From assembly GCF_013404085.1 (NCBI RefSeq), contig NZ_JABFHO010000001.1:992001-1056000 (forward strand): a DNA stretch of 64,000 bases, given 5' to 3'. How positions within the stretch are numbered: the first letter of the stretch is position 1; every line of letters begins with the position of its first letter. Of this stretch, positions 22,110-62,633 are shown piece by piece. The DNA comes from Winogradskyella helgolandensis (GTDB lineage Bacteria; Bacteroidota; Bacteroidia; Flavobacteriales; Flavobacteriaceae). The notes below the pieces were generated by a model, which saw nothing but the letters and a program-made list of their open reading frames with translations, made no database searches and was not told the origin of the DNA. Position numbers and translations under genes: made by a program.

Positions 22110-22217
22110 TAGAAAATATGAACTTAGCAATGTGTAGAAACACGCAATCTTAACTTTTATATTTTTTCTTTCTGTAAGTAAGTTAGAACTAGTTATTAAT
22201 TATACACGATGTTAGGC
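22110..22217 (-). repeat. attC-like site A1 (end of cassette array in the element)
   Basis: On the minus strand it opens with the core GCCTAAC followed by ATCGTGTATAATTAATAAC, the motif shared by the sites of both arrays. The far arm (GCGTGTTTCTACACATTGC) is diverged. Plus-strand GTTAGGCATA at 22211 is exactly complementary to TATGCCTAAC at 23111-23120, the other end of the same cassette. Confidence 0.75.
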
Positions 22218-22221
22218 ATAG

Positions 22222-23058
22222 TTATATTTTATTCATATCAATATCGTATCCAGATGCTTTCATTTCTTTCGCAATTGTATATTTCCAAGAATCCGCGTTG
22301 TCCAATTGAATATAAACAACTCCAGAAATATCATTAGGTAATTCAACATCTCCTTTGACTAAAGCACAGACATTCTCTCTTTTAATTTTTCCAATTAAAA
22401 ATCCATGTTCAAAAACAACATTTTGTCTTGCTCTCGATTTTAATTCAGGATTTTCGATTTGCTTACTTCCAATATCACAAGGTGTATATAAAACAATACC
22501 AAAACCTACATTGGAATATTCCTCAATTTTTTCAATAATTGACATACTAGAACTTGCTTGTTCGTGAAGAATAATTGCTTCAAACCCGAGTTTTTCAACA
22601 AAACGTGCTGTTTTAGTTTTAGCTTCTTCATCGTGTCCGTGAACAATAAATACTTTTGATTTGTTATCTGTTAGCTTTTTACTGTTAACGGGTTCATGTT
22701 TGGTTTTAATCATATGCGCTTTTGCTAATATAAAATTAAGGTTTGCTAATTTTTTTTGTAAAAGAATTTTTTTAAGCTTATCTGGCGATGGTCTGTTATA
22801 ACGAGTATAATTTAAACTTGAGACTTCTATAGAATAATAAGTAGAACTATAGGTGTTAAAAGCATCATTAAAGGCATTACTTAAAAACTGACTGTTATAA
22901 TTGTCCCATAGTTTATACTCTTCTTCAAAATTATCAAAACTTTCCTTGTCTGAAATTTCCTTTCTAAATAATGTTTCGCCTTTATTAATTGTATCAGATA
23001 ATTGACTTTTAAATTCTGATTTAGACATTGATAAGATTGGGTCTGATTTTTCTTTCAT
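22222..23058 (-). CDS. TIR-like (CAP12/Pycsar-type) NADase-like protein, predicted phage defence
   Basis: This 278-residue protein has a helical N-terminal part (1-130) of unknown fold. From about 133 it carries the TIR-like nucleotide-binding domain: KVFIVHGHDEEAKTKTARFV, ILHEQASSSMSIIEKIEEY (with the probable catalytic Glu), VGFGIVLYTPCDIG, RARQNVVFEHGFLIGKI and VELPNDISGVVYIQLD. Proteins with this domain degrade NAD or bind cyclic nucleotides to stop infected cells. It is the only gene in cassette 1, 38 bases from the nearest site core, and lies close to the ABC defence operon. The trigger is unknown. Confidence 0.85.
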   Translation of the reverse strand: MKEKSDPILSMSKSEFKSQLSDTINKGETLFRKEISDKESFDNFEEEYKLWDNYNSQFLSNAFNDAFNTYSSTYYSIEVSSLNYTRYNRPSPDKLKKILLQKKLANLNFILAKAHMIKTKHEPVNSKKLTDNKSKVFIVHGHDEEAKTKTARFVEKLGFEAIILHEQASSSMSIIEKIEEYSNVGFGIVLYTPCDIGSKQIENPELKSRARQNVVFEHGFLIGKIKRENVCALVKGDVELPNDISGVVYIQLDNADSWKYTIAKEMKASGYDIDMNKI

Positions 23059-23113
23059 TTTATTTTAAAAACATATTTTTCTCTGTTAGTTCAATGGTTG
23101 TTCGCTTAATTAT

Positions 23114-23244
23114 GCCTAACGTGATTGTCTATGGTTAGTTGCGTGTTTAAGCACTAAAGTTAGTAAATAAAATACAGACAGAAAGTCTGCGAGGACTTTC
23201 GTAAGTAGGCTAGAACTAGCAATAAATTATATACGGTGTTGTGG
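23114..23244 (-). repeat. attC-like site A2
   Basis: It is bounded by GCCTAAC (23114-23120) and GTTGTGG (23238-23244). Inside, GTCTATGGTTAGTTGCGTG is imperfectly complementary to CTAGCAATAAATTATATACG, with a small AAAGTCTGCGAGGACTTT hairpin at the tip. It is a palindrome with bulges, as in folded attC sites. Confidence 0.8.
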
Positions 23245-23261
23245 GTAGTTACTTTAATAAT

Positions 23262-24032
23262 CTATTGACAAACAAATATCTGTTTTTCAGAATTATCATT
23301 AAATTCTTCTTCTTGAAATCCTCCGAACTTGTGAATAATATCAAAGCCATTACTTTCAAGGTATGAATCTAATTCTTGAGGGAAAAACAGTCTCATATCC
23401 AAATTTTGAATTGAATCAAACTCGTCATTTATATAGTAATGCCATTCTATTCGGTTAATTTGAGTTTTGTTTTCATATCGCATTTTCTGCTTTATTAAAA
23501 CCTTTCTTCCATCCTCGGTTATATATTCAGCAATTACTTTTTGTTCTTTTTCACCTTCAATAATGTATTTAATATTAGGATTATAGCAATCCAATAAAAA
23601 GAACCCATTTTCTTTAAGGTGATTCTTTACAACATTTAATGCTTGGAATAAATCTTTGTTTTGATATAAATGATGAATTGAATTAAATGGAATAAAAATC
23701 AAATCGTATTTTTCAGACAAATCCAAAGTTCTAATATCCGCTTCAATAAATTCAATTTCTAAACCAGCTTCTGAAGCTTTTACTTGTGCTTGTTCAAGCA
23801 TTGAAGAAGTGATATCAACTCCGCTAATGTTATATCCATCCTTTGCAATTGGAAGGGTAAGTCTGCCAGTTCCACAACAAAGTTCAAGTATACGAGCGTC
23901 CTTATTTTTTGGCAACCACTTCTTGTAAAATTTCAAATCAGTTAGGTCAGTGTTCATTCCGTCGTAAACATTCGCGTCATAAATCAAATCACCAACTTTG
24001 TATTTACTATTTATTTTATGCTCCAATTTCAT
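23262..24032 (-). CDS. Class I SAM-dependent methyltransferase
   Basis: This 256-residue enzyme has motif I ILELCCGTGRLTLPIA, the acidic loop GVDITSSMLEQA, IEADIRTLDL and LIFIPFNSIHHL. The C-terminal part is beta-rich. It resembles small-molecule methyltransferases with a Methyltransf_25 core; the substrate is unknown. It is the only gene of cassette 2, 18-20 bases from the site cores at each end, and uses codons like its neighbours. Confidence 0.85.
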   Translation of the reverse strand: MKLEHKINSKYKVGDLIYDANVYDGMNTDLTDLKFYKKWLPKNKDARILELCCGTGRLTLPIAKDGYNISGVDITSSMLEQAQVKASEAGLEIEFIEADIRTLDLSEKYDLIFIPFNSIHHLYQNKDLFQALNVVKNHLKENGFFLLDCYNPNIKYIIEGEKEQKVIAEYITEDGRKVLIKQKMRYENKTQINRIEWHYYINDEFDSIQNLDMRLFFPQELDSYLESNGFDIIHKFGGFQEEEFNDNSEKQIFVCQ

Positions 24033-24053
24033 TGTTATTTATTGTGCTCTAAT

Positions 24054-24187
24054 TACCCACAACGGTCTTGTATATGAAAAGTAGCGTTTAGGTATTCAAT
24101 ACTTTTCTCTTTGCCTAAAGATATTAAAAAAGCGCAAACCATTATGATTTGCGCTTAATTAGCTATTTTTTATATACGTTGTTAGCA
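24054..24187 (-). repeat. attC-like site A3
   Basis: Bounded by TACCCACAAC (24054-24063) and GTTAGCA (24181-24187). The tip is replaced by a strong hairpin, AAGCGCAAA...TTTGCGCTT, which could also terminate transcription. The minus-strand end ACGTATATAAAAAATAGCT is a diverged form of the shared motif. Confidence 0.7.
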
Positions 24188-24202
24188 AACGTTTTATTCT
24201 AT

Positions 24203-53986: not shown

Positions 53987-54004
53987 GAAGTTTATTTTTA
54001 GGGT

Positions 54005-54122
54005 TTTTGTGTTTGCTTAGTTCCACGTTTAAGCACTAAAGTTAATGAATAAAAACTAAAAATAAAATCCTAAGGGATTTTTGTAAGCGTGTTAGTGCTT
54101 TTGATTGTATCCGGTGTTTTGT
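54005..54122 (-). repeat. attC-like site B1 (left-most)
   Basis: The plus-strand core is GTTTTGT (54116-54122), next to CCGGT. The inner parts TTCCACGTTTAAGCACTAA and GTTAGTGCTTTTGATTG are diverged forms of the shared arms. The adjoining gene reads through the core and stops at 54092, inside the site. Confidence 0.65.
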
Positions 54123-54520
54123 TTATTTTTTATAAATTCTATTATTTTTCCAATTCCGAAAACAGTTAATGCAAGAGTTCCTGAAACAACGCATCCAGTT
54201 ATAAATGAAAAATTTCTACCAGTATCACTTATTAGATTTCTCATGGCTTTTTTCTGTTGAGGTGTGATTTCATTTCCGTTAAAAAAACCATCTTTATTTA
54301 GGTCAAACGTATTTAAATTCCATTGTGCATAAATGTCATCATAAGTAGATGTTCCAACGATAAATAGGTAAAACGAAAAGAAGACAGTGACGCTGATCCA
54401 AAACCATTTCATTTTTGTGTTTCTAAATATGCGCTTTCTTTTTAAGAATAGGATTCCTAAAACTAGCATTGAAATTAATGATGGAATGATTAAATGATAT
54501 GGTAAAGTGATTTCGTTCAT
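54092..54520 (-). CDS. Membrane protein with an EF-hand calcium loop (cassette gene)
   Basis: This 142-residue protein has three membrane helices (SLISMLVLGILFL, WFWISVTVFFSFYLFIVG, FSFITGCVVSGTLALTVFGIG). Between helices two and three is DLNKDGFFNGNE (residues 73-84), a perfect 12-residue EF-hand loop with acidic residues at positions 1, 5 and 12 and Asn at 3 and 9. It is probably a calcium-sensing or calcium-stabilised membrane protein. Its C-terminus is encoded within the attC-like site, typical of cassette genes. Confidence 0.65.
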   Translation of the reverse strand: MNEITLPYHLIIPSLISMLVLGILFLKRKRIFRNTKMKWFWISVTVFFSFYLFIVGTSTYDDIYAQWNLNTFDLNKDGFFNGNEITPQQKKAMRNLISDTGRNFSFITGCVVSGTLALTVFGIGKIIEFIKNKQNTGYNQKH

Positions 54521-54547
54521 TAAGATTTAGGCAAATGGTTTATTGTT

Positions 54548-54976
54548 TCAATCGCATTCCATTTTGTAAATGTCTAAGAATTTTGTGGTAAATATTTTAA
54601 TTTCCTTTTTCTTTTTGATTTTAGTGATAAAATATATGAGAAGTAGAAGCAAAGCACTAATAATTAGAACTAACCAATAGCTTTTTAAGTGGATGAATGA
54701 GAATAAAGAGAGTGCAATGCCAATAAGCGCTAAAAACTTATCTTTTAAAATTTTTCTAATTTTTAAATAAGATTTTATTTCAAATTTCCTATCCGCATTT
54801 AGAGTTCCAACGATGAAATAATTATTAGGCAAGTAATTTCGTGTTAATTCAAATTTTTCCAATTCTATATACCCATTGTAATGACCATTCTGAATTAATT
54901 TATTCAAAATATGCAATGACTTCTCATTTTTGGGAATTTTTCTTTCATACATTGAATTACGCATGGTGTTGGTCAT
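54548..54976 (-). CDS. Cassette-encoded membrane protein of unknown function
   Basis: This 142-residue protein has a soluble N-terminal part (SLHILNKLIQNGHYNGYIELEKFEL) and two C-terminal membrane helices (FLALIGIALSLFSFIH, WLVLIISALLLLLIYFIT), ending in a basic tail. The start is uncertain, as Met1, Met5 and Met9 are possible. It shares a cassette block with the EF-hand gene 27 bases downstream. Confidence 0.55.
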   Translation of the reverse strand: MTNTMRNSMYERKIPKNEKSLHILNKLIQNGHYNGYIELEKFELTRNYLPNNYFIVGTLNADRKFEIKSYLKIRKILKDKFLALIGIALSLFSFIHLKSYWLVLIISALLLLLIYFITKIKKKKEIKIFTTKFLDIYKMECD

Positions 54977-55028
54977 TATTTTTTTATCGACTGCGTTTTT
55001 AAAATCAATTACAATTACCTTATATAGC

Positions 55029-55239
55029 GTCTAAAAAGTTAAGACATCTCCCCATTTTAAAAGCAATATTATTAACGCTGTAAGCGCACCGTTAATCATT
55101 AATATAAAGTGCCAATAATACATTTTTGAAGTCCAGTTTTTTCAGTGGTTTCTTTTTTCATAAAACCTTCAAAGAACTTTATGACTAGAAACGTAATTCC
55201 TATAAAAAGTGGTATTGCTATTGTCCAAAAGGTTTTCAT
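55029..55239 (-). pseudogene. Frameshifted two-helix membrane protein gene
   Basis: From the ATG at 55239 the frame reads MKTFWTIAIPLFIGITFLVI...KKETTEKTGLQKC and stops at 55099 after 46 residues. Shifting frame at the A-run GAAAAAAC gives a continuous WTSKMYYWHFILMINGALTA and then LIILLLKWGDVLTF, stopping at 55029. The joined product of about 70 residues has two clear membrane helices, so a one-base indel in the A-run (or programmed slippage) is likely. Confidence 0.6.
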
Positions 55240-55245
55240 GTTTTA

Positions 55246-56076
55246 TTATTTTTTGTCAGTTTTAAATAGGGATTCAAAGGCATTGTAAACTGCATTATGT
55301 AAAGCGTCTCCGTGTGTTTTGTTCTCTAAGAAATCGTAAAATAATTTGGTGTTCTGACTTTTAGTCTCTTTTAGTTTGTCATATAGTTCTTTAGTAGTGC
55401 GTTCCATGATGGCTCCTTCTTTTCCTCCTGCTATGTATATCGATTTATTTGAATCGTAGGAAGCGGGTTGCAGATCTAGTAGCTTTTCATCGTCCCACCA
55501 CAAACTTGGACTCACAATAATATAGTTATCAAAAAGTTCTGGGTTTTTAAATAGTATTTCTGTTGCTAATAACCCGCCCAATGATTGTCCAATAATCGTT
55601 TTTACAGGTGTTGTTCTGAATTTAGCATCAATATACGGTTGTAATTCTTTTTCTAAAAAGGTTATAAACTTTTCAGATTTACCAGATGTAGGAAATTCTG
55701 TTTGGTCTAGTTTATTTTGAGAAGGATACGTAAAATCTCGTTTTCTATCCACGTTTCCGATACCAACAACAATAGATTCTGGAAGCATATTAATCCAAGA
55801 AAAAGATCCAAATTGAACGATTCCTGAAATATGTATAAAATCTTCATCTTTTGAGCCGTCTAGTAAATAAATAACAGGATAAGTTTTTGAACTATCAATA
55901 GAATAACTAGGAGGCAAATAGATGTTCAATGCTCTAGTCTCATCTAATAGTACTGATTCAATGTGCACCGATTTTCCAATCGAAAAATCTGTTTCACTAA
56001 TTTTTTTAGGTAGTTCTTGTGCATAAGACAAATGCGTGAATAACAATAAAATCCAAATGAATGTAGTTTTTTTCAT
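55246..56076 (-). CDS. Exported alpha/beta-hydrolase esterase (Fes/esterase D-like)
   Basis: This 276-residue protein has a signal peptide (FIWILLLFTHLSYAQ), DETRALNIYLPPSYSIDSSKTYPVIYLLDG, nucleophile Ser165 in IIGQSLGGLLA and the catalytic His in NKTHGDALH. This is the putative esterase family that includes enterochelin esterases and many carbohydrate or siderophore esterases. The enzyme is periplasmic or exported. It sits in the cassette array, next to the frameshifted membrane gene. Confidence 0.85.
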   Translation of the reverse strand: MKKTTFIWILLLFTHLSYAQELPKKISETDFSIGKSVHIESVLLDETRALNIYLPPSYSIDSSKTYPVIYLLDGSKDEDFIHISGIVQFGSFSWINMLPESIVVGIGNVDRKRDFTYPSQNKLDQTEFPTSGKSEKFITFLEKELQPYIDAKFRTTPVKTIIGQSLGGLLATEILFKNPELFDNYIIVSPSLWWDDEKLLDLQPASYDSNKSIYIAGGKEGAIMERTTKELYDKLKETKSQNTKLFYDFLENKTHGDALHNAVYNAFESLFKTDKK

Positions 56077-56086
56077 GTTTTTTTAA

Positions 56087-56214
56087 TTGGCTGTAATGTG
56101 TGTGTTTAATTCCATGGCTAAGCATGTAATTTAGTAAATATAAACTTAATAAAAATAGGTAAGTGTTTTTGTAAGTAGTTGAAAATTAGCCATTAATTTT
56201 ATGCGTTGTTGGCA
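56087..56214 (-). repeat. attC-like site B2
   Basis: The right core is GTTGGCA (56208-56214). The left end is TTGGCTGTAAT (56087-56097), like that of site B5. Arms GTGTTTAATTCCATGGCTAAGC and AAAATTAGCCATTAATTTTATGCG share GGCTAA/TTAGCC pairing. The gene at 56199 ends within it. Confidence 0.65.
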
Positions 56215-57257
56215 GAAGTTTTTATTTGTTTTTCTTTTGTTTTTATTTCGTGTTTCTTTAAAATTTCAGGATATAAATTCCGTGCTGATAGATATTCGGA
56301 TAGTTCGATTTCAAAATCTCCATAGACTTCAAAGAGTTCTTTAGTAGGTGCATACTTTTTTTCATATTCCCAATAATATTTACTAAATATGTCGGAAAAC
56401 AGGACTGATTCTTTATATTCTTTAATATCTACTAAAACATGGTTATACAACTTTATTTCTCCGCCAGTTTCAAAAAATGTTTCTCCATTTTTAAAAAGAA
56501 TTAAATTTGTTTTTTCCCAATTTTTAGTTTTTTCATAACCATTTGTAAATCGTAACTTACTTTTCTCGTATTTAATTAGCCAATCTATCATTGACTTTTC
56601 GGAAGAACTATCAAATTCAGCAAGTGCTTTTTTAGCAGAATTATGATTTTTAACTAATTCGTTAAAATTCTCAATGGTCATATAAATTGATAAGAAAGGC
56701 CAAACAAAATTATAATCCCAATCTAAGTCTTTTACAGAATTATGTATTTTTTTATTGTCTTTAAACCAAGAAACAAACTTATCAATATCTGTTATTTTGT
56801 TCTCAAATTTCTCAAATTCTTTTACGGCAACTTCTACTTGTTTTTGAAGTGATGAAATATAAGATGAAGGATTGTAATTTTTACTTTCATCTTTTTTAAA
56901 CCTGAAATAAATACAGTTTTTCTTAATGAGGTTTTCTTCGTTTTTAAAAATATTACATCTAAATAAATCTACGATTTCATTATTTTCCTCTTTAAAAAGT
57001 AAATCTAAATAGTCATTGTTTTTTGTTAAAAAAGTATAGCCATTACAACCATTAAAGCATTTATTACAAGTTCCTTTTGAAACGTTCACAAATTTTGTAA
57101 TTCCTTGATTTTTTAACTTGTTTAACTCAATACTTAACGTTTTAATAAATAACTCTTTAGGAACCTCCATGTAAGCTTTGTCATTGTCTAAAACGACGTC
57201 TAGCAAGGCCATATCCATTTCTGTTATAGCTTTTATAATTGCTTTTTTATTACTCAT
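56199..57257 (-). CDS. Cassette-encoded protein with Cys-rich N-terminal motif
   Basis: This 352-residue soluble protein has a CxxCxxxC cluster (KGTCNKCFNGCNGY, about 62-75) that may bind zinc, then a helical middle (ISSLQKQVEVAVKEFEKFENKI) and an end of SANNA encoded inside the attC-like site. No family recognised. It forms a three-gene unit with the next two upstream genes, all in one cassette block, so they may act together. Confidence 0.6.
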   Translation of the reverse strand: MSNKKAIIKAITEMDMALLDVVLDNDKAYMEVPKELFIKTLSIELNKLKNQGITKFVNVSKGTCNKCFNGCNGYTFLTKNNDYLDLLFKEENNEIVDLFRCNIFKNEENLIKKNCIYFRFKKDESKNYNPSSYISSLQKQVEVAVKEFEKFENKITDIDKFVSWFKDNKKIHNSVKDLDWDYNFVWPFLSIYMTIENFNELVKNHNSAKKALAEFDSSSEKSMIDWLIKYEKSKLRFTNGYEKTKNWEKTNLILFKNGETFFETGGEIKLYNHVLVDIKEYKESVLFSDIFSKYYWEYEKKYAPTKELFEVYGDFEIELSEYLSARNLYPEILKKHEIKTKEKQIKTSANNA

Positions 57258-57275
57258 AGAAGTGGTGAGGTTTTC

Positions 57276-57887
57276 TTAATCGGTATTCCATAAGTTTGAA
57301 TCGTCATTTTCATAAGCATCGCTATGCCAATTGTTATATTCTCCTAGTTGTGACCTATCAGTAACTCTATCATCATAGTAACGTTCGGCTTCTTCCTGAG
57401 TATAAATTGTAAGCCTTGTGTATCTACCTAATTTGCCATATTTCTTTTCTACTTCTAAAAAAAGTAATAATTTGGGATTTAGTTTAATTTTCTGAACTAA
57501 TTCTTTGTTACATATTACTGCAACACGATTTAAATTATCCCAATGCCTAAAGTTTGCATTGTTTCTGAATTCATCCGTTTTAAAATGAAATTTTGAAATT
57601 CCTATTTCTTTTTTTATGATGTCAATAGTGGTGTTTTCAATGTTTTCAAATTGAAAATCTTTAACATCTTCATCTGTATAATATTCTTCGGCATTAACTC
57701 TTTCATAAAGATATTTATTAATAATATTTATAATATTACCATAGTTAAAAAACAGTCTTTCCTTTAGGAGTTTAGATTTTAGGTCATTATTGGGTATTTT
57801 GTGTATTAAGTGACTTAATGGATAAGTGCGTTCTAATTCAATCGCTGAATTAATGGAAATTAATAATTGCTTTAAATTTTCATTCAT
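57276..57887 (-). CDS. Cassette-encoded hypothetical protein
   Basis: This 203-residue charged soluble protein contains LIHKIPNNDLKSKLLKERLFF, RHWDNLNRVAVICNKEL and a Tyr/Asp-rich end (RYYDDRVTDRSQLGEYNNWH). It reads 18 bases upstream of the Cys-rich gene. No family recognised. Confidence 0.55.
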   Translation of the reverse strand: MNENLKQLLISINSAIELERTYPLSHLIHKIPNNDLKSKLLKERLFFNYGNIINIINKYLYERVNAEEYYTDEDVKDFQFENIENTTIDIIKKEIGISKFHFKTDEFRNNANFRHWDNLNRVAVICNKELVQKIKLNPKLLLFLEVEKKYGKLGRYTRLTIYTQEEAERYYDDRVTDRSQLGEYNNWHSDAYENDDSNLWNTD

Positions 57888-57898
57888 TTTTCTTATAA

Positions 57899-58378
57899 TT
57901 AAAATGGTAAACCCAAATCAATTTCATCATTGTAAAGGATGTTACAAGAGGAATGTTCTTTGTCTTTGTATTTATCATAAATATTTTTTTCTGTACCTAA
58001 AGCAACGCATTGTTCTAATTCCTTTCTTTTCTCAAATTCAACCTCATTATAGACTAAATAAACATTTTTTTTGCAATCACTACAAAATTTAATGTCATCA
58101 TCATTGGTTTCAATTAAGTCAGAATAAGATTTAGAACACGGATTTTTAAAAAGACTTTTATTTATTTCTAACTTCATACTTTTAATATGAATCATAGCAA
58201 AATGGTAATTTTCATTTTCAATTTCAATGCCAATATCTATTATTAATTTTTCAGTATTAGATTTTTGTTCCTTGAAGTTGTTTTTAAAAAACGAAAGTGA
58301 AAATTTATCATTATCCATTACTAATGCTTGTAAAATATTTAAATTCTTAAGAGTTAGTAAATTGGGGTTATTAGTCAT
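57899..58378 (-). CDS. Cassette-encoded protein with paired Cys motif
   Basis: This 159-residue protein has a middle segment KNPCSKSYSDLIETNDDDIKFCSDCKKNVYLV. It recalls a small flavobacterial zinc-type motif (C...W..M....RFC..C.K.V) found in various uncharacterised proteins; the match is from memory. It is the 5' gene of the three-gene block and lies 11 bases upstream of the next one. Confidence 0.55.
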   Translation of the reverse strand: MTNNPNLLTLKNLNILQALVMDNDKFSLSFFKNNFKEQKSNTEKLIIDIGIEIENENYHFAMIHIKSMKLEINKSLFKNPCSKSYSDLIETNDDDIKFCSDCKKNVYLVYNEVEFEKRKELEQCVALGTEKNIYDKYKDKEHSSCNILYNDEIDLGLPF

Positions 58379-58430
58379 AATAATTATTATTTAAGCTGTA
58401 TTCTTTATTTCAGAAATGCGTGAGTTTAAA

Positions 58431-58596
58431 TTACAGCAGAGACAGTTTTGTGTATGGTTAGTTGTGTGCTTTAAGCACCTAATTTAGTAAATAAAACACA
58501 GTTAGACCCGAGCGCAGCGAACTGGCGAAGCAATATGCCGCAGGAATGTTAGTAAGTCGGCAGTGACCAGGTAATTAATTATACACAGTGTTGTAC
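58431..58596 (-). repeat. attC-like site B3
   Basis: The right core is GTTGTAC (58590-58596), preceded by AATTAATTATACACAGT. The left arm is GTGTATGGTTAGTTGTGTGC. The tip is longer (about 60 bases, GC-richer) with CGAGCGCAGCGAACTGGCG and CCGCAGGAA. The left core is degraded. Confidence 0.7.
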
Positions 58597-58606
58597 ACTG
58601 GCTTTT

Positions 58607-59110
58607 TTATTTTATAATTCCGCTAAATGTTTTTGATTCGTTATAAATAGTAATTCCGAAAAGATTCCATTTCAAAACACCGTTAGCAGTAAATTCCGCT
58701 TTTTTAGATTGTTTGTAACTATTAGTTTCAATCGATGTAAATTCCCATTCGTAACCGCTAACAAATCCAGTTAAGAAACTATTACTTTCTATGGGAATCA
58801 ATTCGGTTTGTTCAATCGAATACTTTACGTGCATATTTATATCAAAAGTCAAATTATTTTCGAGCGTTACTTTTTCTACTTCTGAAAAGTTCTTTTTGTT
58901 GTAGTTGTTTGATATTGTAATTCGATTCGTTTTTTCCTCCGAATTAGCAGCAGAAATTACTTGAACAATTCCAATTACCATTACAAATATTGAAACAACT
59001 TTGAATCTAGGATTAAAAATTCGTTTACCTTTTCTAATAATTCCAACAATCAGATATAGAAAGTAGAAAACAATAATTAAATTAATAATTGACCAAAGTA
59101 AATGTATCAT
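58607..59110 (-). CDS. Cassette-encoded membrane protein
   Basis: This 167-residue protein has two N-terminal membrane helices (LLWSIINLIIVFYFLYLIVGII, VVSIFVMVIGIVQVIS) and an exported-looking beta-rich C-terminal part (TLENNLTFDINMHVKYSIEQ, AEFTANGVLKWNLFGITIYNESK). No family recognised. It is the only gene in its cassette. Confidence 0.55.
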   Translation of the reverse strand: MIHLLWSIINLIIVFYFLYLIVGIIRKGKRIFNPRFKVVSIFVMVIGIVQVISAANSEEKTNRITISNNYNKKNFSEVEKVTLENNLTFDINMHVKYSIEQTELIPIESNSFLTGFVSGYEWEFTSIETNSYKQSKKAEFTANGVLKWNLFGITIYNESKTFSGIIK

Positions 59111-59133
59111 AGGTTTTCGTTTTTCAGCTTGTT

Positions 59134-59270
59134 TATAAAACGGTATTGTGTATGGTTGGTTGCGTGGTTAAGCAACTAATTTAGCAAACTTTTACGAACC
59201 CGTAAAAATTCCGAAGGAATTTTCCAAATAAGCACTTGCCAAAGCAATTAATTAAACACGGTGTTGTAGC
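59134..59270 (-). repeat. attC-like site B4
   Basis: The right core is GTTGTAG (59264-59270), preceded by GCAATTAATTAAACACGGT. The left arm is GTGTATGGTTGGTTGCGTGG. The tip AAAATTCCGAAGGAATTTT forms a hairpin, as in sites B6 and B7. Confidence 0.75.
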
Positions 59271-59273
59271 TAG

Positions 59274-60368
59274 TTATTTTTTAACTACTTCTTTTATTTT
59301 TTCAAATGTATCTTCCCAATTTACATTACCATATTTTTCTCCCATTCTTACAATAATTAAATTTTGGGATGGACTGACAAATATAAATTGACCTAAAATA
59401 CCCTCTGCAATAAAATCTCCTTTTTCGTTAGGTATCCACCATTGATATTGATAGCCTAAATTACTACCTTTCAAAGAATCTAATTTAGTTGAATTATGAA
59501 CCCAAGATTCAGAAACGATTTGTTTACCATTCCAATTGCCTTTATTTAGATATAAACGTCCAAATTTTGCAAAATCAATTGCTCTAGCGTTTATACAACA
59601 AAAAGTTTTTTCTAAACCATCTTTCTTTTTGTCAATGCTCCAAGACGCACTATATTCCATACCAACTTGTTTCCATAGTTTTTCTTCCAGATATTGAGAG
59701 ATGCTCTTCTCTTTTAAAACTCTGTCTAGTATTAAACCTAATAATTGAGTATTACCACTAACATATTCTGTTAACTCGTTAGGTTTGTTTTTTAGTTTTA
59801 ATTTTAAACTTGATTTTTCTAAATTTCTACCATAATAGAATGTTGCTGCGTGTCCAAAAGGATTAATATAACTTTCGTTAAAATCAAGTCCAGAAGTCAT
59901 CTGCAAAAGATTTTCAATAGTCACATCTTCAAATCCGTTTTCTTTTAGTTCAGGTATGTAAATTGTTACTGGGTCATCAATTGAATTGATATATTTGTCT
60001 TCAATTGCACAACCTATTAAAAAAGAAGTAAATGATTTTGCCATTGAAAAAGATGCAACTATAGACTCTTTAGAATAGTCGTTAAAATAATTCTCATATT
60101 TTAATGTATCATTTTGAATTATTAAAAAAGCTACTGTTTTACTTTTGATAAGAAAATCTTCAAAACTACCACCATCTTTTAATGTGATATTAAGTTCGTT
60201 CTTTTCATTATTTTTAAAATAAAAAATATCGGTAGAATCATTTTCTATTTTTCGCTCAGGGAAAATTTTATAATCAGTTATATCGGCAAAATTATAATAT
60301 GCAAATCTTCCAACTGTACAAGACGATGTAGTAAATAATATTAATAATAGATAAATTATTTTTTTCAT
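59274..60368 (-). CDS. Serine hydrolase, class C beta-lactamase family, lipoprotein
   Basis: The ATG at 60368 is used, because it gives a lipoprotein signal (LILFTTSSCTVG). The longer frame to 60431 enters the attC-like site. The product is 364 residues. The active-site Ser108-x-x-Lys111 is in FSMAKSFTSFLIGCAI and the Tyr-x-Asn region in EYVSGNTQLLG. The family includes class C beta-lactamases, esterases and peptidases, so drug resistance is not implied. It is the only gene of its cassette. Confidence 0.85.
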   Translation of the reverse strand: MKKIIYLLLILFTTSSCTVGRFAYYNFADITDYKIFPERKIENDSTDIFYFKNNEKNELNITLKDGGSFEDFLIKSKTVAFLIIQNDTLKYENYFNDYSKESIVASFSMAKSFTSFLIGCAIEDKYINSIDDPVTIYIPELKENGFEDVTIENLLQMTSGLDFNESYINPFGHAATFYYGRNLEKSSLKLKLKNKPNELTEYVSGNTQLLGLILDRVLKEKSISQYLEEKLWKQVGMEYSASWSIDKKKDGLEKTFCCINARAIDFAKFGRLYLNKGNWNGKQIVSESWVHNSTKLDSLKGSNLGYQYQWWIPNEKGDFIAEGILGQFIFVSPSQNLIIVRMGEKYGNVNWEDTFEKIKEVVKK

Positions 60369-60386
60369 TTCAGGCGTTTTTTTTAA

Positions 60387-60523
60387 TTGGCTGCAATATG
60401 ATTGTGTATGGTTAGTTGCGTGGTTAAGCAACTAATTTAGCAAATAAATCACAGATAGAATATTCCGCAGGAATGTTCGTAAGTCGGCAGTGAGCAATGA
60501 ATTAATTATACACGGTGTTAGCT
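60387..60523 (-). repeat. attC-like site B5
   Basis: The left core is TTGGCTGCAAT (60387-60397); the right core is GTTAGCT (60517-60523). Arms are TGTGTATGGTTAGTTGCGTG and GAATTAATTATACACGGT. The tip AATATTCCGCAGGAATGTT forms a hairpin. The left core pairs with the start of the same cassette (59264, GTTGTAGCTA) if G-T pairs are counted. Confidence 0.8.
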
Positions 60524-60541
60524 GTAGTTATTATTTCGTTT

Positions 60542-61102
60542 TCAACTTTCCCACGTTATGTCATGTAGTGTTCCATCTTTGTTGATATTCACAACTAAAA
60601 GCTGATTACAAGGTTCTCCATTAATATCAATTGAATAATCAAAAGTTCCGAAATAAGAATGTTGTGGATAAATTCCAACTCTAATTAAGTTCAGTTTTTC
60701 CATTAAAAGACTATTTCTCGAATTGTTTCGATTTTTCAAGTTTATTATTCCAGCTAATTCACTTTCGTCAAGTTCGTCTAGATAGAAATTTAAATAGTCA
60801 GATACCTCACTTGCGTCTTGTTCAAAATCCGATTCTAAATAACTTCGATTTTGAATATCAAATTCAGGTATTTTGTTTACGAATTCTACGATTTGATTTA
60901 ATTCAGATTGATTTGTTGATTCAAGCTCAAAATTTATATCCAATTTCATTATGCGCTCTCCATAATTCAATTTCCAATTGTAATAATCTTTTAATTTTTG
61001 AATGTCAATTTCTTTAAAATCTGGTTTCTCCAAAATTCTGATTTCTACTTTACTATTTTCAGGTGCTTCTTTATTTTTTTTAAAAAGGTCAAATATTCCC
61101 AT
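60542..61102 (-). CDS. Cassette-encoded protein, DUF2004-like
   Basis: This 186-residue acidic cytoplasmic protein ends with LNLIRVGIYPQHSYFGTFDYSIDINGEPCNQLLVVNINKDGTLHDITWES. The pattern Gly-Ile/Leu-Tyr-Pro, Phe-Asp-Tyr and Leu-Val-Val followed by a final Trp-Glu-Ser looks like DUF2004 proteins, from memory. Function unknown. It is the only gene of its cassette; the stop is 18 bases from the core. Confidence 0.6.
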   Translation of the reverse strand: MGIFDLFKKNKEAPENSKVEIRILEKPDFKEIDIQKLKDYYNWKLNYGERIMKLDINFELESTNQSELNQIVEFVNKIPEFDIQNRSYLESDFEQDASEVSDYLNFYLDELDESELAGIINLKNRNNSRNSLLMEKLNLIRVGIYPQHSYFGTFDYSIDINGEPCNQLLVVNINKDGTLHDITWES

Positions 61103-61133
61103 TTTTCGTTTTTCAGAATTGAGTGAGTTAATT

Positions 61134-61270
61134 ACAGCTAACGTTGTTGTGTGTGGCTAGTTGCGTGGTTAAGCAACTAAGTTAGTAAACATTTACGAAC
61201 CCGTGAAAATTCCGCAGGAATTTTCACAAGTAGGATAAAACCTAGCAATTAATTATGCACGGTGTTACCC
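61134..61270 (-). repeat. attC-like site B6
   Basis: The left core is ACAGCTAAC (61134-61142), complementary to GTTAGCTGT at 60517; the right core is GTTACCC (61264-61270). Arms are GTGTGGCTAGTTGCGTGG and CTAGCAATTAATTATGCACGGT. The tip AAAATTCCGCAGGAATTTT is a perfect hairpin. It is the best-preserved site with B5. Confidence 0.82.
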
Positions 61271-61813
61271 AACGTTTTTATTTCGTTCAAATTCAGTTTG
61301 TATTAATTGTTCCAGTTTTCCAAAATCATATTTTAGAGTATTGGATGTAATCGAAAGTGGTGTTCCGTACATTTTCATATTCGAACGCATAAGTTTGGCT
61401 TTCATTCCGCCTTTTGCTTTTTCGATATATTTTTCAGGATTCGTGACGTTAATCAGTAGAAATTTTGATGACATAACTTGCTTTGTTATGATATCAGTTA
61501 TATCATTCCATTCAATTAATCCGACACTCGATGCGTTTGAGTTGTCAGTTATTCCGTTTGAGTCAATTGTCAGTCCAACTTTTTTGTCAAACAGTTTTTT
61601 AAATCCAAAAATTCCTGTAGCACCAAAAAACAAAATACTTAAAATCCCAACTCCTTTTACTACCATTGGATTTCTCAATATTCTAAATGAATGTTCTTGA
61701 AAACTCTCCGCATTTGTAAACAGCCAAACTCCTAATATTACAAATAATATAGAACCTCCAATTCCTAAAAGTAATTTGTTTTTGCTTAATGGTATTTCAA
61801 TCTTTTCTTGCAT
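61265..61813 (-). CDS. STM3941-family membrane protein (cassette gene)
   Basis: This 182-residue protein has two membrane helices (LLLGIGGSILFVILGVWLF; MVVKGVGILSILFFGATGIFGF) and a PH-like C-terminal part (VGLTIDSNGITDNSNASSVGLIEWNDITDI). The Lys/Arg-rich stretch IEKAKGGMKAKLMRSNMKMYGTPLSI matches the STM3941 family in my memory. Its last codons overlap the attC-like core. Function unknown, membrane-located. Confidence 0.75.
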   Translation of the reverse strand: MQEKIEIPLSKNKLLLGIGGSILFVILGVWLFTNAESFQEHSFRILRNPMVVKGVGILSILFFGATGIFGFKKLFDKKVGLTIDSNGITDNSNASSVGLIEWNDITDIITKQVMSSKFLLINVTNPEKYIEKAKGGMKAKLMRSNMKMYGTPLSITSNTLKYDFGKLEQLIQTEFERNKNVG

Positions 61814-61843
61814 TTAATTCAGTTTTTGGTTTGAGTGGTTAAT

Positions 61844-61978
61844 GTTGGGTAACGTTTATGTATAAGAATAGTTGCGGGTTTGTATGCGAGGAATTTCCGA
61901 AGGAAATTCAGAAGTTACAAACACGCAACGACCTTTGATTAAGCACTAAGCCGCAATTATTTTTATACGGTGTTAGCA
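61844..61978 (-). repeat. attC-like site B7
   Basis: The left core is GTTGGGTAAC (61844-61853), complementary to GTTACCCAAC at 61264; the right core is GTTAGCA (61972-61978). It differs inside: GTTGCGGGTTTGT pairs with ACAAACACGCAAC, and the tip is GAATTTCCGAAGGAAATTC. A further piece TTAAGCACTAAGCCGCAATT follows. Confidence 0.75.
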
Positions 61979-61988
61979 AATCGGTTTT

Positions 61989-62633
61989 TTATGTTTTAAT
62001 CATATTTATCATTCCATAAGAATAACTTCCTTTTGGTAATCTGTCTCTAAAATCTTTAAAATATTTCCACAAGTTAAATTCGTTGTTAATTGACTTTAAT
62101 ATGTTCCGAACGTTTTTTATTTCAGACATTTCTGGGTCTTGATATCTTTCGTTTTCTGGTTCCCAATATGAGTAGACATGTCTTGTTTTTCCATTTCCGA
62201 TTTCAAAAACATATGTCTTTCCGTCAAATCCTTTCGGATAGTTTTCAATTTCTGCACAATCTTTTAAGGTCTCAATATTTTCCGCATTTAGAGAGTTAAT
62301 TAATTTCTCAACAATTCTGTTTGGAATTTTTATTTTTTGATAAATAATCTCTGACTTATTCTTTCTTTTATTTTCTGTCACAAAATTTGTCAAAGTTCCG
62401 TTATAAGTTGAGTCAGTTATTTTAATCAGTTCCACAACTTGATAATCTGTCCAAATTCGGTAAGCTTTTTCAAAATTCAGACTGTCATAATGTTTTAATC
62501 CAATTTCAATTCGGTCAGACTCGATATAAGGATTCCAAAAGGATTCTTTTTCGGTTTGTCCAAATGCAAAAGTCGAAATCAGACTTAAAATTAATATGTG
62601 GATTTGTTTTTTCAACTGTTTGCTAACATGCAA
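61989..62633 (-). CDS. Exported cassette-encoded protein of unknown function
   Basis: This 214-residue protein has a signal peptide (KKQIHILILSLISTFAFGQ). The first ATG (62633) lies partly outside the cassette core, so a TTG start at about 62615 may be the real one. The mature part has FWNPYIESDRIEIGLKHYDSL and GKTRHVYSYWEPEN. No family recognised. It is the first gene of array B on the minus strand. Confidence 0.6.
   Translation of the reverse strand: MHVSKQLKKQIHILILSLISTFAFGQTEKESFWNPYIESDRIEIGLKHYDSLNFEKAYRIWTDYQVVELIKITDSTYNGTLTNFVTENKRKNKSEIIYQKIKIPNRIVEKLINSLNAENIETLKDCAEIENYPKGFDGKTYVFEIGNGKTRHVYSYWEPENERYQDPEMSEIKNVRNILKSINNEFNLWKYFKDFRDRLPKGSYSYGMINMIKT

Follow-up and report, generated by a model that had tools for sequence, protein, structure and literature searches.

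In a 64,000-nt stretch of the Winogradskyella helgolandensis genome (G000:C1:992001-1056000, hereafter the window; the genome comprises 4.6 Mb in two contigs, C1 and C2), seven related palindromic sites separate minus-strand genes between 54 and 62.6 kb. We consider it very probable that these are attC-type recombination sites and that the segments between them are mobile cassettes of an integron-like Bacteroidota system with a Xer-type recombinase. Five computed results carry this reading: the anatomy of the sites, the cassette-specific complementarity of the segment ends, the boundaries of the unit, the linkage to a recombinase and an attI-like stretch. As proposed in the first-pass annotation of the window, we trained a covariance model (R1), here on six window sites (S1-S5 and T2, plus strand), and searched the genome with it; its structure, a 16-bp L stem plus a 5-bp hairpin, was given by hand from one of these sites. 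R1 matched all seven palindromes that the annotation had described, the two leftmost weakly and the model-building sites by construction. The annotation had counted ten sites in the window, and the remaining three were found in a smaller second array at 22-24 kb, as two sites (23108-23245 and 24051-24188) and one half-site (22194-22213). At an E-value of 0.01, R1 detected 175 sites in 335 kb of the same genome (the window plus 15 stretches picked because an earlier whole-genome search had placed sites there); that earlier search itself scored only 150 sites.

Read on the top strand of the array, a cassette starts with GTT-N7-A-T and ends with A-C-N7′-AAC, where N7′ complements N7. Both motifs were present in 138 of the 162 site-to-site intervals shorter than 4 kb in this genome, and in these cassettes a mean of 7.19 of nine positions were complementary (places 4-12, place 11 included), compared with at most 3.78 in 10,000 permutations of the partners. 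Place by place, the complementary fraction was 0.92-0.96 at places 4-9, 0.72 at 10, 0.01 at 11 and 0.80-0.91 at 12-14, whereas the corresponding fractions for swapped partners were 0.29-0.63 (0.03 at place 11). These values bear out the annotation's claim that the ends are complementary and differ from cassette to cassette, and the pair that it had quoted (GTTACCCAAC/GTTGGGTAAC) is present, with ends at 61853 and 61264. For a wider set, a profile hidden Markov model made from the 150 best own sites was run on the loci of relatives and on the own stretches, yielding 559 matches (528 near full length, 483 with both motifs) and 374 complete cassettes from 24 genomes. At least six of the seven N positions were complementary in 324/374 cassettes, compared with 15/374 when the ends were shuffled. 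The annotation had named matched ends that are not cassette-specific across genomes as an argument against excision as cassettes; in these 24 genomes they are specific, which supports the cassette reading. In contrast, the two R arms of one in-array site in this set matched no better than shuffled arms. Therefore, the pairing belongs to the cassette and not to the site, as would be expected if it matters in the excised circle.

Apart from one feature, the sites show the anatomy of attC (R″...AAC, L″, L′, GTT...R′, palindromic): the canonical R′ consensus GTTRRRY was scarce, occurring in 16/374 starts, with a purine at place 4 in 371/374. Pairing past seven bases, presented by the annotation as a novelty, is not new, as canonical cassettes self-pair over 9-11 nt (PMC2727003, available text). 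The real differences from canonical integrons are the integrase family, the lack of extrahelical L-stem bases and the conserved G.T wobbles.

Next to the matched ends, shared cassettes mark out the unit that moves. A shared body, spanning 85% or more of its length, was seen in 26 pairs among the 374 cassettes. Five within-genome pairs had a body identity of 0.994 or higher, and in these the right core was identical in 5/5 (1.0) and the left core ranged from 0.58 to 0.91 (random, 0.74-0.76); identity stopped no more than 3 nt left of the GTT and 3-4 nt into the next GTT. These limits point to crossover within the GTT that the sites share, which is also the case in integrons. In all five pairs the cassettes thus behave as GTT-bounded units, with older pairs less clear; among the other three within-genome pairs with bodies above 0.9, one keeps its right core (0.99). 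Near-identical cassettes were found in two places with different neighbours, so the sites are not tied to a fixed gene content, and the annotation's other argument against excision, sites conserved regardless of gene content, was not borne out. The longest open reading frame (ORF) lies on the top strand in 349/374 cassettes. That the palindromes are terminators or repetitive extragenic palindromic (REP)-like repeats between genes, which are moved by homologous recombination, is extremely improbable: many related repeats would supply the homology, and cores do look partly exchanged between genomes, but matched ends that differ between cassettes and the fixed GTT boundary would be left unexplained, as would the uniform gene direction and the recombinase and putative attI at an array head. 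In shared cassettes (L121-L160, L261-L300 and own arrays), the gene and both R arms were nearly unchanged and the attC core varied from genome to genome, as though each genome had homogenised its own cores.

The annotation had described the array as lacking an integrase. This is correct for the window array but not for the genome, where an array elsewhere is headed by a recombinase. Similarly, the search that it had suggested for a linked IntI-type integrase gave no match at the curated cut-off in the genome, yet a linked tyrosine recombinase of Xer type was found. The largest array (78 detected sites) occupies the end of C1 and the start of C2, which presumably join inside it, and begins behind the gene for this 375-aa recombinase (G000:C1:4327165-4328292). 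The first cassette start, GTTGTAAGTAATGC, lies 39 nt past the recombinase stop codon, and the cassette's own end, GCACTACTTACAAC, closes an 850-nt unit. Eight recombinase loci align from the stop codon via an inverted repeat (GGATATA...TATATCC) to the GTT and then diverge; judged by this behaviour, on sequence alone, the conserved stretch before the GTT is a candidate attI beside the integrase gene. Both contigs end inside the large array (C1:4356360 and C2:1) and contigs of several relatives end close to the recombinase, so arrays seem to break assemblies.

Linkage was also seen in relatives. R1 sites occurred in 28/40 loci around recombinase homologs, compared with 0/20 control loci around XerC/D-like genes of the same genus, and the 12 siteless loci comprised seven in which, on the array side, the contig ends fewer than 500 bases away, one with a truncated gene and four that come from other families within the order. 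A motif-free test, using exact N7 matches with A/G polarity, found 64 pairs along and 13 against the direction of the recombinase in the 40 loci, and none in the 20 controls. The 13 pairs came from seven loci, of which five have a 355-aa subfamily transcribed away from the array; in loci of this subfamily, an AT-rich stretch ending in GTGTT precedes the first cassette. Taken together, the co-directional and divergent layouts place the recombinase at the attI end in both. Co-directional intI has a precedent in Treponema (PMC3607928, available text). The 355-aa subfamily at L138, L141, L142, L144, L145 and L152 is divergent from the array, which is the classical integron layout, within the same genus as the co-directional one.

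This linkage bears on whether the arrays are ordinary integron remnants of a canonical IntI, i.e. attC clusters without an adjoining integrase (CALIN), beside which a Xer-type recombinase lies by coincidence. The attC-site anatomy and the window array without an integrase would fit such remnants, canonical cassettes also self-pair (9-11 nt; PMC2727003, available text) and intI genes are documented in the Bacteroidetes/Chlorobi group (PMC2426708). However, we regard this explanation as highly improbable, given the lack of any IntI above the curated cut-off in the genome, the bordering of sites by the recombinase in 28/40 loci (0/20 in controls) with a conserved attI-like stretch between, the 142/150 sites without an extrahelical L-stem base and the rarity of GTTRRRY.

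The recombinase passed the NCBIfam model XerA_Arch (NF040815; 239.5 bits, cut-off 220) and failed the integron integrase model TIGR02249 (193.4, cut-off 265) and the XerC and XerD models (TIGR02224, 201.7, cut-off 335.15; TIGR02225, 201.4, cut-off 329.6). XerA, XerC and XerD were its best NCBIfam models. The product name of the XerA model also says 'integron integrase', and under this name ('site-specific tyrosine recombinase/integron integrase') NCBI lists many of the homologs. Identity was 31% to IntI1 and 32-33% to two Xer proteins of the same genome. R235, K260, H324, R327, H350 and Y359, which we take to be the catalytic residues, are invariant in the recombinase alignment A4, and the catalytic part of the recombinase model resembles XerA and the Vibrio integrase IntI4; the first ~100 residues, forming an N-terminal domain, had no Pfam match. 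In the alignment, IntI1 alone has a block of ~40 residues, which is missing from the recombinase and from the genome's own XerC/D-like proteins, and the recombinase has 21 residues where IntI4 (2a3v) has 64. Since the IntI-specific additional domain, with its I2 helix, was looked for and is absent, the system stands outside the IntI-integron family, although it appears integron-like in function. A FastTree tree with 138 rows set the XerC/D-like controls apart and left IntI1 unplaced on a long branch.

Strand polarity appears to be encoded in the sites. Place 11 combined A in the start with G in the complement of the end in 313/374 cassettes (A/C in 43, others in 18), which gives A.C on the top strand and a G.T wobble on the bottom strand only. 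Over the 150 best own sites, in an alignment fitted to R1, the L stem was 96.8% paired, three of its pairs were G.U (G.T; 142/147, 115/147 and 146/148 cells) and 9/16 showed changes on both sides; when the partner was shifted by 1-3 columns, the paired fraction of the entire structure fell from 93% to 33-46%. A six-site MAFFT alignment gave an L stem that was 93.8% paired. The bottom strand folded more stably in 120/122 circular and 117/122 in-array forms, and the single fold of S1 reached -21.4 kcal/mol on the plus strand (z -5.1) and -17.8 kcal/mol on the minus strand (z -3.2). In 142/150 own sites, the set to which this count refers (Rufibacter-type sites at L195 are left out), no base occupied any unpaired L-stem column; these sites therefore lack the extrahelical bases that direct strand choice in canonical attC (PMC2727003, available text).

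In the mechanism that we propose, a Xer-type tyrosine recombinase would take up cassettes in circular form at an attI adjoining its gene. On the bottom strand, each cassette site would fold into a hairpin made up of an R box (GTT plus ~11 positions), an unpaired spacer, an L box (16 bp) and a variable terminal structure (VTS), and strands would be exchanged within the GTT that attI shares with the sites. The I2 helix of IntI reads extrahelical bases; the Bacteroidota system would have neither this helix nor the bases, and polarity would instead be encoded by conserved G.T wobbles, of which the L box has three and the R box one (place 11), and which pair on the bottom strand only. Thus, we infer that the recombinase performs the reaction, that its substrate is a folded single strand and that the wobbles set polarity. 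We lean towards the view that integron-type capture by an I2-less Xer-type integrase, with wobbles rather than extrahelical bases marking the strand, represents a second origin of single-strand hairpin recombination or a form of it that predates I2. One-strand hairpins are typical substrates of single-stranded-DNA enzymes, but such an enzyme (e.g. an HUH transposase), for whose gene no search was made, is unnecessary given the tyrosine recombinase linkage, and there is almost no chance that one moves the cassettes. Double-strand Xer-like recombination, with a duplex GTT core as at dif-like sites, symmetry that reflects two binding arms and no single-strand substrate, is unlikely. It would suit an enzyme that lacks the insertion held to allow single-strand recombination (PMC7790495, available text) and that is matched best by Xer models, and an attI whose short inverted repeat resembles a duplex core site. 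However, cassette-specific self-complementarity matters only if both ends pair on one strand, in-array duplex sites bear two unrelated R arms, and wobbles that pair on one strand only are conserved.

Several observations weigh against an integron-like system with a Xer-type recombinase. The R boxes of in-array sites pair poorly, which does not explain the excision step of an inserted cassette, and three of five window sites (S3, S4 and T2), folded singly in their in-array form, were no better than shuffles on either strand. Of the eight within-genome pairs, two, with bodies of 0.985 and 0.955, show right cores of only 0.62 and 0.76, and for 12 between-genome pairs the values were 0.82 for the right core, 0.77 for the left and 0.74 at random. 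In older shared cassettes the right core thus does not clearly travel with the gene, and cores seem to have been replaced or homogenised over time. The array-linked recombinases are not one clade in the FastTree tree and fall into several Bacteroidota subfamilies, and the recombinase of seven loci is oriented away from its array. Finally, six of the 37 genus genomes searched (G006, G020, G022, G023, G034 and G035) have sites and no recombinase homolog at E 1e-55 or better; arrays therefore persist, or are served, without the recombinase.

R1 sites were present in 37/37 genomes of the genus, with 1 to at least 53 each, and in 4/23 genomes that belong to other families within the order. At an E-value of 1e-55 or lower, 31/37 genus genomes contain a homolog of the recombinase (one broken, one a fragment). 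At least 20 sites each occur in G034, G006, G020 and G035, which have no close array-recombinase homolog. In 295 genomes drawn evenly from the class, 26 had a site at E 1e-5 (25/156 genera, own included). Among 80 named loci around recombinase homologs, 45 were searched with R1, of which nine had sites at E 0.01 (one weak, 0.007), including Winogradskyella ursingii, Seonamhaeicola, Algibacter and Zunongwangia. The motif-free test found pairs in 16 of the 80 loci, 34 along and four against the recombinase. In Rufibacter (L195), a chain of six end pairs lies downstream of the recombinase; the last four follow the GTT-N7-AT rule, and the sites between have 53 nt between their arms, quite unlike R1. 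Three of these sites were folded, and the bottom strand was lower in energy each time, with one no better than shuffles. Because the Rufibacter sites are unlike R1, R1 detects one of several site families. The system is present in several orders of Bacteroidota. A metagenome contig labelled Spirochaetota (L207) carries a recombinase homolog and one GTT-N7-AT pair.

Three of ten window proteins encoded in the segments have a Pfam family (beta-lactamase-fold hydrolase, methyltransferase and CAP12/Pycsar TIR effector), and 61 proteins from the large array matched 42 Pfam families, none in more than two members; a few of its genes look like defence (Abi_C, OLD/AriA-like AAA).

IntI chromosomal integrons (Vibrio superintegrons, Treponema) are similar in having an integrase at the attI end, an attI, one-direction arrays, R″-L″-L′-R′ sites, a bottom-strand folding bias, a GTT-to-GTT unit and self-pairing ends (9-11 nt; PMC2727003, available text). 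They differ in that the Bacteroidota recombinase lacks the IntI-specific insertion and has an extra N-terminal domain, and most Winogradskyella-type sites lack extrahelical L-stem bases; conserved G.T wobbles and the rarity of GTTRRRY are further differences. With XerA/XerC/XerD, the array recombinase shares a passing score for XerA_Arch; unlike these, it is cassette-linked, has an N-terminal extension and falls apart from the XerC/D-like proteins of the genus in the tree. Both intI genes and integrons have already been described in Bacteroidota (PMC2426708; PMC8618304), and IntegronFinder 2.0 names one complete Bacteroidetes integron, in Salinibacter ruber (PMC9024848, available text). This integron comes from the same phylum-level group but was found via IntI, and integron integrases are identified through the IntI-specific domain (PMC9668308, available text), a filter that the Winogradskyella system would be expected to fail. 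The I2 helix has been called necessary for cassette capture, absent from other proteins and the step that created integrons (PMC7790495, available text); an I2-less recombinase with sites that mostly lack I2-docked bases makes this claim of necessity directly testable. If our reading is true, superintegron-sized arrays headed by an I2-less integrase are missed by tools that demand IntI, and integron surveys may leave out a large gene-exchange system of a major marine phylum, its cargo largely without a Pfam family in the window and in part similar to phage defence. There may be a second, largely overlooked form of a known gene-shuffling system, with well over 100 small, swappable packages that resemble integron cassettes in this marine bacterium.

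Riemerella anatipestifer belongs to the same order as Winogradskyella. In this species, natural transformation brings a gene, aph(3′)-IVb, into the chromosome without homology at its flanks; 27 bp before it and 140 bp after it always come along, the 140 bp fold like attC, and the authors propose an unknown site-specific mechanism; the available text names no enzyme (PMC13148043). Flavobacterial-order host, insertion as a unit without homology and attC-like 140 bp are features in common, whereas a single resistance gene is involved and the available text describes no array, cassette-specific ends or recombinase; the likeness is one of description. As far as that text goes, this report is the closest that we found, lowers the surprise of attC-like sites in the order and supports the mechanism, leaving the enzyme open. 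It is our conjecture that the recombinase family described here would supply the enzyme for this homology-independent insertion.

The features of the two window arrays are collected in the table. As attC clusters without an adjoining integrase, both arrays taken alone fit the label CALIN, which is defined with canonical attC models, whereas the sites here were called by R1 and not by IntegronFinder. The shared motif AACACCGTGTATAATTAATT includes the L″ arm, which pairs with GTGTATGGTTAGTTGC on the plus strand. Ends matched clearly in cassettes 0, 1 and 2 and in the methyltransferase and TIR effector cassettes, and weakly in both segments between 58.6 and 60.4 kb; no match was seen on inspection of the ends of the two leftmost segments. 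The segment following S3 opens with ATT instead of GTT. The window array is an outlying integrase-less array, decayed at its left end.

Table. Sites, cassettes and genes of the two arrays in the window (window coordinates; all model-building sites match R1 by construction)
Feature	Position	Strand	Evidence
Cassette 0: GTTAGCAAA ... TTTGCTAAC, 214-aa ORF, no Pfam match	61972..62627	-	Ends read in sequence
attC-like site S1 (R″-L″-VTS-L′-R′ on minus strand)	61841..61979	-	R1 108.6 bits, E 3.5e-24; model-building site
Cassette 1: GTTACCCAAC-ATT ... AACGTTGGGTAAC, 182-aa ORF, no Pfam match	61264..61853	-	Ends matched
attC-like site S2	61130..61271	-	R1 143.2 bits; model-building site
Cassette 2: GTTAGCTGTA-ATT ... 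AACTACAGCTAAC, 186-aa ORF, no Pfam match	60517..61142	-	Ends matched
attC-like site S3	60385..60524	-	R1 142.9 bits; model-building site
Serine hydrolase gene, beta-lactamase fold family, segment after cassette 2	59274..60368	-	PF00144, E 7.2e-28
attC-like site S4	59129..59270	-	R1 133.2 bits; model-building site
attC-like site S5, longer terminal structure	58431..58597	-	R1 117.4 bits; model-building site
attC-like site S6, degenerate	56085..56215	-	R1 42.2 bits, E 1.6e-7 (weak)
attC-like site S7, degenerate	53990..54123	-	R1 34.5 bits, E 1.3e-5 (weak)
attC-like site T1, second small array	24051..24188	-	R1 49.1 bits, E 2.8e-9
Methyltransferase cassette (GTTGTGGGTA-ATTA ... GTAACTACCCACAAC)	23238..24063	-	Methyltransf_25, E 3.8e-21; ends read
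attC-like site T2	23108..23245	-	R1 130.6 bits; model-building site
CAP12/Pycsar-type TIR effector cassette (GTTAGGCATA-ATTA ... AACTATGCCTAAC)	22211..23120	-	PF10137, E 7.6e-39; ends read
Half-site T3 (AAC + L″ arm only)	22194..22213	-	Motif scan, 2 mismatches; R1 does not call a site

The family name PF00144 of the serine hydrolase denotes a fold and not resistance. No second gene was seen inside the TIR effector cassette. The sole PF00589 match within the window lies at 16.8-17.4 kb. Between 13751 and 22000, a 421-aa tyrosine recombinase comes after a tRNA-Asn, and a UmuC/UmuD-like pair lies further along (named by eye); this stretch, which adjoins the small array, resembles an integrated element.

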